Positions 2,111 to 18,840 of a DNA stretch of 35,149 bases are shown in pieces. The notes beneath the pieces were generated by a model. It was not told the origin of the DNA and did no database searches. It saw only the letters and a program-made list of their open reading frames with translations. Each line of letters begins with the position of its first letter. Position 1 is the stretch's first letter. A program made the position numbers and the translations under genes. Source of the stretch: Deltaproteobacteria bacterium (GTDB lineage: Bacteria; Desulfobacterota; DSM-4660; Desulfatiglandales; Desulfatiglandaceae); NCBI GenBank assembly GCA_003646815.1, contig QMLQ01000005.1:1-35149 (forward strand). The letters are read 5' to 3'.

Positions 2111-2522
2111 TCATTCTTCTCCAAAAACGGTATTTATTGGTAGGGCAGGGGAACGGGGTGTTCCCGGAGTGGCGTCATTTTACCGTGAAAATCCCCCCAG
2201 CGGCGGCCGAATATGCGGGCTCAATTTTCATATCCGGGGGTGGCTGGGCTTATTTTGGTCCAGCCATGCTGGTTTAGCCCTGGAACAGGACAGCGGAAGG
2301 GCTAAAACCGGGGACCCGCCGGAGGGTGGGGAGTCCAAGCGAAGCGCGGACAAACCCGCAGTGAGCGGAGCCAAGGAGGGCGGAGCGAACGTAGCGGAGG
2401 GAATATGCCGGTATCCTGCCCGTGAGTTCCAGATTGGCAACCTGGCTTCCAAGAGAGAATTTTAGGGGTGTAACCAATTAAAATCAGATTATGGGATGGC
2501 CAGGAACGCTTTTTTTGGACAG
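2111..2522 (+). repeat. Dispersed repeat, copy A (about 410 bp, short terminal inverted repeats)
   Basis: This stretch matches 18569-18840 read on the opposite strand over most of its length. Shared blocks include CCAAAAACGGTATTTATTG at the left, the GGGAAC...GTTCCC hairpin (2149-2165), GCAGTGAGCGGAGCCA, GCGAACGTAGCGGAGGG, and GTGTAACCAATT near the right end. The ends carry a short inverted repeat: TCCAAAAA at 2120 and TTTTTTTGGA ending at 2519. Copy A is longer than copy B because it has extra segments at about 2181-2277 and 2300-2350. The first of these contains a GGCTGG...CCAGCC hairpin (2242-2265). A long open frame crosses it (2010-2465), but the frame is not kept between the copies, so I treat it as non-coding. 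It fills most of the gap between the response regulator and rlmH. Confidence 0.8.
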
Positions 2523-18538: not shown

Positions 18539-18568
18539 GGGTAGATGCAATTCCATATGAGACCACTA

Positions 18569-18840
18569 CTGTCCAAAAGGAATCGTTCCTGGAGATCCCA
18601 TTATTTGATTTCAATTGGTTACACCGTGGAAATCCTCTCTTGAAAAACAGGTTGTCAATCTGGAACTCACGGACAGGAGACCGGCATATTCCCTCCGCTA
18701 CGTTCGCTTCGCCGTCCATGGCTCCGCTCACTGCGGATTTTGTCCTTTCCACTGTCCTGTTCCAGGGACAAAATGACGCCGCTCCGGGAACATCCCGTTC
18801 CCCTGTCCAACAATAAATACCGTTTTTGGATAAGAATGAT
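18569..18840 (-). repeat. Dispersed repeat, copy B (about 270 bp, inverted relative to copy A)
   Basis: Read on the minus strand, this stretch follows copy A (2111-2522) block by block: CCAAAAACGGTATTTATTG, a GGGAAC...GTTCCC hairpin with loop GGGAT in place of GGGGT, CCCTGGAACAGGACAG, GCAGTGAGCGGAGCCA, GCGAACGTAGCGGAGGG and GTGTAACCAATT. It ends in TTTTGGACAGT where copy A ends in TTTTTTTGGACAGC. The ends carry the same short inverted repeat (TCCAAAA). It lacks the two extra segments of copy A. It fills nearly the whole gap between sat-cysC and the VanZ-like gene and ends right at the start of the latter. Confidence 0.8.

Follow-up and report, generated by a model that had tools for sequence, protein, structure and literature searches.

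The closest described counterparts of the element reported here are the ERIC, NEMIS/Correia, YPAL, CIR and similar repeats, which are 100 to 200 bp long, non-autonomous and mostly equipped with inverted ends and target duplications (PMC2229807, accessible part). Transcripts of repeats of the ERIC/NEMIS type are said there to form stable structures, and for some of these repeats effects on adjacent mRNAs are reported. The same part of that source describes the folds as mainly long stem-loops in which the 5′ end pairs with the 3′ end, and for most of the repeats no transposase relative had been found (PMC2229807). A second point of comparison is the class of "mobile/repeat sequence candidates" (MRSC), for which 250 motifs were counted; MRSC-65-2 is described there as one long stem that contains a UYCCGG repeat (PMC11109978, accessible part).

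The element analyzed here occurs twice in the window, by which we mean the whole 35,149-nucleotide stretch of DNA under analysis. Compared by description only, and with the accessible part of their account, it shares with ERIC, NEMIS, YPAL and CIR a small non-autonomous format, inverted ends, target duplications and structure, but differs in having a separate internal three-way-junction module, covariation across families, an IS partner and several types of ends. Like the MRSC motifs, as far as their account was accessible, its core is multicopy, structured, covarying and inconsistently oriented to genes. Unlike MRSC-65-2 as described there, the core has a three-way junction, and UYCCGG is missing from 54 of 94 copies and occurs no more than once in any copy. 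One of the 250 MRSC motifs could be identical to the core motif, the comparison having covered MRSC-65-2 alone, by its description in the accessible part.

Two kinds of insertion sequence are also relevant. The element has terminal repeats in common with an IS4-family IS (DUF4372 plus DDE_Tnp_1) of its own genome; unlike such an IS, it is a MITE without a transposase gene, and its interior does not match that of the IS. IS200/IS605-type elements associate with guide RNAs and resemble the present case in that a structured RNA is tied to a transposable element, but the present case differs in its DDE transposases, inverted ends and target duplications. A literature search, largely confined to openly accessible papers, returned no description of the element, nor of one covarying core across several transposon families. 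Taken by its parts, the element is a MITE whose interior is structured, and the sharing of the core among several families is the aspect that was not found described.

We consider it probable that the repeat is a non-autonomous transposon (MITE) whose ends correspond to those of an IS4-family (DUF4372) element in its own genome, and that the fold of some 135 nt conserved in its interior is formed by a single strand, most probably of RNA. The preliminary description had offered a non-autonomous mobile element or a structured RNA as alternatives. Both were borne out together, the former by further copies and by ends with target duplications, the latter by covariation.

Two copies of the element in the window

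An earlier observation that about 410 bases match an inverted copy 16 kb away was confirmed by four inverted-repeat blocks of 165, 42, 35 and 29 nt, which are 83 to 97% complementary. Copy A spans positions 2112 to 2527 on the plus strand (416 bp); the ends first given for it, 2111 and 2522, located the copy correctly and are here shifted by a few bases. Copy B lies at 18564 to 18838 on the minus strand (275 bp), lacks two segments found in copy A, and has flanking 9-mers that match at 7 of 9 positions. After removal of its two extra segments copy A measures 274 nt and has the same base as copy B in 238 of 276 aligned columns. Copy B was recovered in two pieces with E values of 1.5e-53 and 3.0e-21, far beyond chance.

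The left terminal inverted repeat of copy A (CATTCTTCTCCAAAA, 2112 to 2126, plus strand) and the right one (CATTGCTGTCCAAAA on the minus strand, 2513 to 2527) are 15 bp long and imperfect. The TCCAAAA inverted repeat noticed previously at both ends belongs to them. Immediately outside lies an exact 8-bp direct repeat, GCTTTTTT, at 2104 to 2111 and 2528 to 2535, which forms the target-site duplication of this copy; the corresponding duplications of sibling copies are 9 bp long. Copy A has a response-regulator gene on one side and a SPOUT methyltransferase gene on the other, and copy B comes after an ATP sulfurylase/APS kinase gene, with HSP20 also nearby. The open reading frames over both copies are uncharacterized, at most 151 amino acids long, and extend past the element; neither copy contains a transposase gene, as had already been noted.

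IS4-type ends and a candidate transposase donor

The ends of copies A and B, referred to here as frame A, are the first of three kinds of transposon ends that were recognized around the core. Two IS4-type ends were present in 26 of 135 classified core copies. The flanking 9-mers of these 26 matched at all nine positions in 11 copies, at eight in 5 and at seven in 4; matches of at least 7/9 occurred in 20 of the 26, versus 1.8% of random places. For 45 of the 135 copies neither end fitted any of the three frames, and for 47 a single end did, some of these one-end calls being chance hits at the mismatch limit used. Contig ends, decay and further frames are the likely reasons why these 92 copies lack two recognized ends.

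An end-pair scan of the own genome detected, on contig C156, two such ends separated by 1.4 kb with a transposase gene between them. This IS partner is 1,425 bp long (G000:C156:151-1575) and has the same ends as copies A and B. Its transposase matches DUF4372 (PF14294) and DDE_Tnp_1 (PF01609), both above cut-off, and scored 256 bits against the NCBIfam IS4 model NF033592 (cut-off, 115 bits), which places it in the IS4 family. The same ends also enclose two remnants, one of 64 bp with an exact 9-bp duplication and one of 41 bp. No target duplication was visible at the 1,425-bp copy, and no relative of its transposase was found in six of nine genomes searched, although five of these six carry the core.

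The repeat thus has the features by which MITEs are recognized: it is short, has no transposase gene, carries terminal inverted repeats and a target-site duplication, and shares its ends with an autonomous element. The 1,425-bp IS4-family element is the probable transposase donor, and its transposase would mobilize the MITE in trans.

A conserved three-way-junction core

The structured core of copy A extends from 2143 to 2421 on the plus strand, including the two extra segments, and that of copy B from 18667 to 18811 on the minus strand, where it was matched by models R1 (162.9 bits) and R2 (145.5 bits). The core, of about 135 nt, is closed by stem P1 (about 20 bp). P1 is followed by a 3x3 internal loop rich in purines and by two G-C pairs, which lead to a three-way junction carrying the stems P2 and P3. 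By covariation, the 5′ strand of P1 in copy A occupies 2143 to 2165 and the 3′ strand 2399 to 2421; P2 (TTTAGCCC / GGGCTAAA) lies at 2273 to 2306 and P3, with G.A internal loops, at 2361 to 2390, all on the plus strand.

A first covariance model was built from an alignment of 25 cores from several genera and collected 95 copies. In these, 95.4% of the cells at the 43 pairs were paired, versus 85.0% after shuffling, a count made on the corrected structure that replaced a first one. Changes on both sides of a pair occurred at 34 of the 43 pairs and in 366 cells, versus a mean of 70.7 cells for shuffled alignments and at most 87 for slid structures. A second model, derived from 34 diverse cores, collected 94 copies that included two more families; here 92.1% of cells were paired versus 76.6% after shuffling, with 537 double-change cells versus 132.7. 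Covariation of the kind expected of a structured RNA thus exceeded both shuffled and slid controls. The tandem G.A/A.G pairs of P3 were nearly invariant (79 of 89, 81 of 87, 88 of 90 and 88 of 91), and one core from another family, in genome G387, folded by itself into exactly the consensus structure (z, −7.1).

The GGGAAC hairpin that the preliminary description found in both copies is a possible local fold. As a conserved structure, GGGAAC...GTTCCC was rejected: its arms sit in the long closing stem by covariation, and the G007:C40 and G387 copies keep P1 while losing the local hairpin. A 4-bp P3 hairpin and a CGT/ACG helix proposed by RNAalifold were likewise rejected, being broken in G387-type copies, and were replaced by an extended P2 and the G.A-rich P3. 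Rfam 15 gave no gathering match in the window and no match up to an E value of 1 in six loci, four of which carry the core, and the core adds a structured family missing from that release.

In G000, G011 and G460, P2 is exchanged for an unrelated hairpin at identical boundaries. The replacements are CAGGCACT...AGTGCCTG or CAGGCACC...GGTGCCTG hairpins and occur in genomes of different families (L021, L095, L097, L338 and L339). A small palindromic repeat, a hairpin of the CCTGCCTGC...GCAGGCAGG type, was inserted at the tip of P2 in several G387 and G007 cores (L181, L183, L184, L192 and L313 to L315).

Constraint and distribution of the core

Constraint was compared in 13 chosen copies with both IS4-type ends, at most two per genome, which gave 73 pairs. 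The median identity between genomes was 0.74 for the core, 0.44 for the left arm, which is short, and 0.30 for the right arm, versus 0.20 for the shuffled right arm. Conservation between genomes is seen in the core but not in the filler of the transposon. Bacterial MITEs are usually seen as ends plus filler, with transcript structure as a by-product of palindromy; here, the interior is the best-conserved part.

With model 1, matches were obtained in 10 of 46 genomes of the family and in 8 of 395 of the phylum; model 2 matched 13 of these 395 and 14 of 85 class-set genomes, with up to 34 copies per genome. The carriers are bacteria of the sulfate-reducer type. Genomes free of matches often neighbor copy-rich ones, a pattern as for a mobile element. 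A scan of one genome per species across about 85,000 species returned 74 stretches, all titled Deltaproteobacteria, Desulfobacterales or Desulfobacteraceae, with an exact pattern that misses the more distant form of the core. The core pattern had no matches in IMG/VR viral contigs, and plasmid and phage collections gave no match to the core. The idea that the core is free of transposon ends in relatives was rejected, as the BLAST alignments had not extended to the ends. In G010, a GC-rich divergent core occurs two or three times in stretches of a few hundred bases, with repeated flanks (C96, C144, C165 and C30; L186 to L189).

Strand sense and nature of the folded molecule

For the strand count, 149 matches were reduced to 96 by removing overlapping reverse-strand rows and the duplicate loci L032 and L151; the set of 95 copies used above results from a stricter E value and fewer sources. 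At paired positions in the 96 rows there were 276 G-T versus 55 A-C cells. Counted once per pair, genome and type, the numbers were 100 versus 44, and by pair 25 versus 10 with 8 ties (P = 0.017), an excess that is partly built in, since the folding and covariance programs allow G-U but not A-C. The excess points to a single strand that folds in the sense of the element, which is the plus strand in copy A. The reverse strand also folds better than its shuffles (z, −2.9, versus −4.4 for the sense strand).

An excess of G-T does not separate RNA from single-stranded DNA. The fold could matter as single-stranded DNA, as a hairpin used in replication or transposition and retained in several transposons since it is helpful to their copying; both the G-T excess and single-strand folding are compatible with either molecule. 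In addition, GCGNAGC motifs, which form very stable DNA mini-hairpins, recur in the core. The transposases of the IS4 and IS1380 families act on double-stranded DNA, however, which speaks against this reading. So does the combination of a 3x3 GGA/GNA loop with tandem G.A pairs within a three-way junction, which in our judgment is RNA-like. Doubt as to whether the molecule is RNA or single-stranded DNA is also voiced by the authors of the MRSC survey, in its accessible part, on their own repeat motif (PMC11109978). Overall, we find a role as single-stranded DNA unlikely, and RNA somewhat more likely than not as the form in which the core acts. The core would then be transcribed and fold on the sense strand of the element.

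Sharing of the core among transposon families

In G387, in two copies in G007 and, more weakly, in one copy in G460, the core lies between CCCA(A/G)ATTATGCG repeats (frame B, IS1380-type). Both of these ends were present in 13 of 135 copies, and the outer 5-mers were identical in 12 of the 13 (counted, like the 3-bp duplications of frame C, without a chance control). A partner for frame B was identified in G007, a 1.6-kb element with the same ends whose transposase gene is split in two frames. This transposase belongs to the IS1380 family (203 bits against NF033539, cut-off 180) and matches PF13701.

In frame C, found in family f30, GTGCTCC...AAATACGG ends enclose the core and are bordered by TNA on either side, and the duplications are only 3 bp long. 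Three f30 copies had both ends, and one G011 copy matched weakly. Elements of about 160 bp with frame-C ends carry a different core. Their interior (GTTGCATTCGAGCGCCGCTGCATCC...) is conserved and may represent a second structured core (L383, L384, L388, L389, L390, L395 and L397, in G347, G308 and G382).

One core is therefore shared by at least three kinds of transposon ends, namely, the IS4 type, the IS1380 type and the TNA-target type. At locus L402, a frame-A element with its core is inserted into a frame-B element, with a 9-bp duplication, ATATTGCAA. The tree of the cores was built from 94 rows obtained in a search of 91 loci, of which L402 and L193 were excluded, leaving 92. In it, the frame-B cores of G007 and G387, which belong to two families, grouped together (support, 0.99), away from the cores that these two genomes carry in frame A.

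A tentative but plausible proposal is that the core is a portable RNA cassette, a three-way-junction RNA that was acquired by at least three unrelated transposon families and selected in each, and that would aid any carrier regardless of its transposase. Frames and cores would then mix freely and hairpin arms would be swapped. In a related reading, mobility would belong to the core itself, a selfish cassette of RNA or DNA that enters the frames or is swapped among them, the frames being mere vehicles. The occurrence of one core in three kinds of ends, the clustering of the frame-B cores of two families apart from frame-A cores, the other core in the frame-C copies of about 160 bp and the replacement of P2 at fixed boundaries could all be read in this way. 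However, no clean site empty of the entire core turned up, and short frame-A and frame-B copies resemble internal deletions. Recombination between nested transposons, as at L402, would also account for changes of frame without a new kind of mobility. We consider independent mobility of the core rather improbable.

Gene context and possible role of the core

The orientation of the core was recorded for 71 named copies with a crude scan for open reading frames (ORFs), 50 of the copies being free of ORF overlap. Among these 50, the upstream gene was on the same strand in 16 cases and on the opposite strand in 19, and the downstream gene was on the same strand in 22 and on the opposite strand in 24, the remainder having no ORF there. 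Core orientation relative to neighboring genes thus looks random. As the core persists with unrelated ends and transposases and seems randomly oriented to its neighbors, it most likely serves the element rather than an adjacent gene and does so independently of the transposase.

In the most likely version of such a role, still hypothetical, the structured RNA would bind a host factor or render insertions tolerable. The core of the MITE would in this case perform a generic task for its carrier, through host-factor binding or through tolerance of insertions in host transcripts. Transcript tolerance as its specific role is doubtful. With its well-conserved, covarying interior and the sharing of that interior between elements with different transposases, the element provides a testable case for a non-coding RNA as a selected transposon passenger.

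That the element is structured and mostly intergenic would also fit a cis-regulatory leader or terminator of adjacent genes, duplicated along with them. A leader or terminator of a fixed gene was rejected on the near-even orientation of the 50 non-overlapped copies and on the differing gene neighbors of copies A and B in the window, and cis-regulation is very improbable. A simple local duplication of non-mobile sequence, to which the two copies within the window would by themselves conform, can be dismissed: matches lie on many contigs, target duplications are present, and copies occur in other genera and families.

Local duplication was the reading that the preliminary description would have drawn from an absence of further copies and of conserved ends. 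Its proposed checks instead yielded further copies in the own genome, in other genera and in other families, 15-bp terminal repeats with 9-bp duplications at intact copies, and strong covariation beyond controls in the folded consensus.

Nested repeats in copy A

The own genome is a 3.47-Mb draft in 410 contigs. Searched with copy A, it gave a list of 55 pieces that formed three sets, and the base element was matched at 12 places, on many contigs. The two extra segments of copy A, previously taken as a hint of a modular build, are two other dispersed repeats of 94 and 48 bp. Siblings lack the 94-bp segment and some also the 48-bp segment, and both are found separately elsewhere. Copy A is thus a transposon that holds two other nested dispersed repeats, which is why it is longer than copy B, and a complex dispersed repeat can here be seen arising through the nesting of small ones.

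The first nested repeat (94 bp, 2183 to 2276, plus strand) is missing from sibling copies of the element. A cleaner search of 46 genomes detected it 19 times in the own genome and twice in the sister species, along with 19 weak copies in a single further genome. In copy A, TTTA borders the repeat on either side; as most of its other copies carry TTTA too, we do not regard it as a target duplication. Another dispersed repeat (CCCGTGAGAAAAGCGGGC with a GCGCGCCTTGTA... arm) directly adjoins several of the 94-bp copies (L015, L016, L017, L022, L023 and L025).

The second nested repeat is a 48-bp unit at 2307 to 2354 on the plus strand, present in some siblings and lacking in others. It is a two-hairpin repeat (CCGGGGACCC...GCGGACAAA) that occurs alone or in tandem, at a spacing of about 46 to 49 bp, in several family genomes, including G010 and G004.
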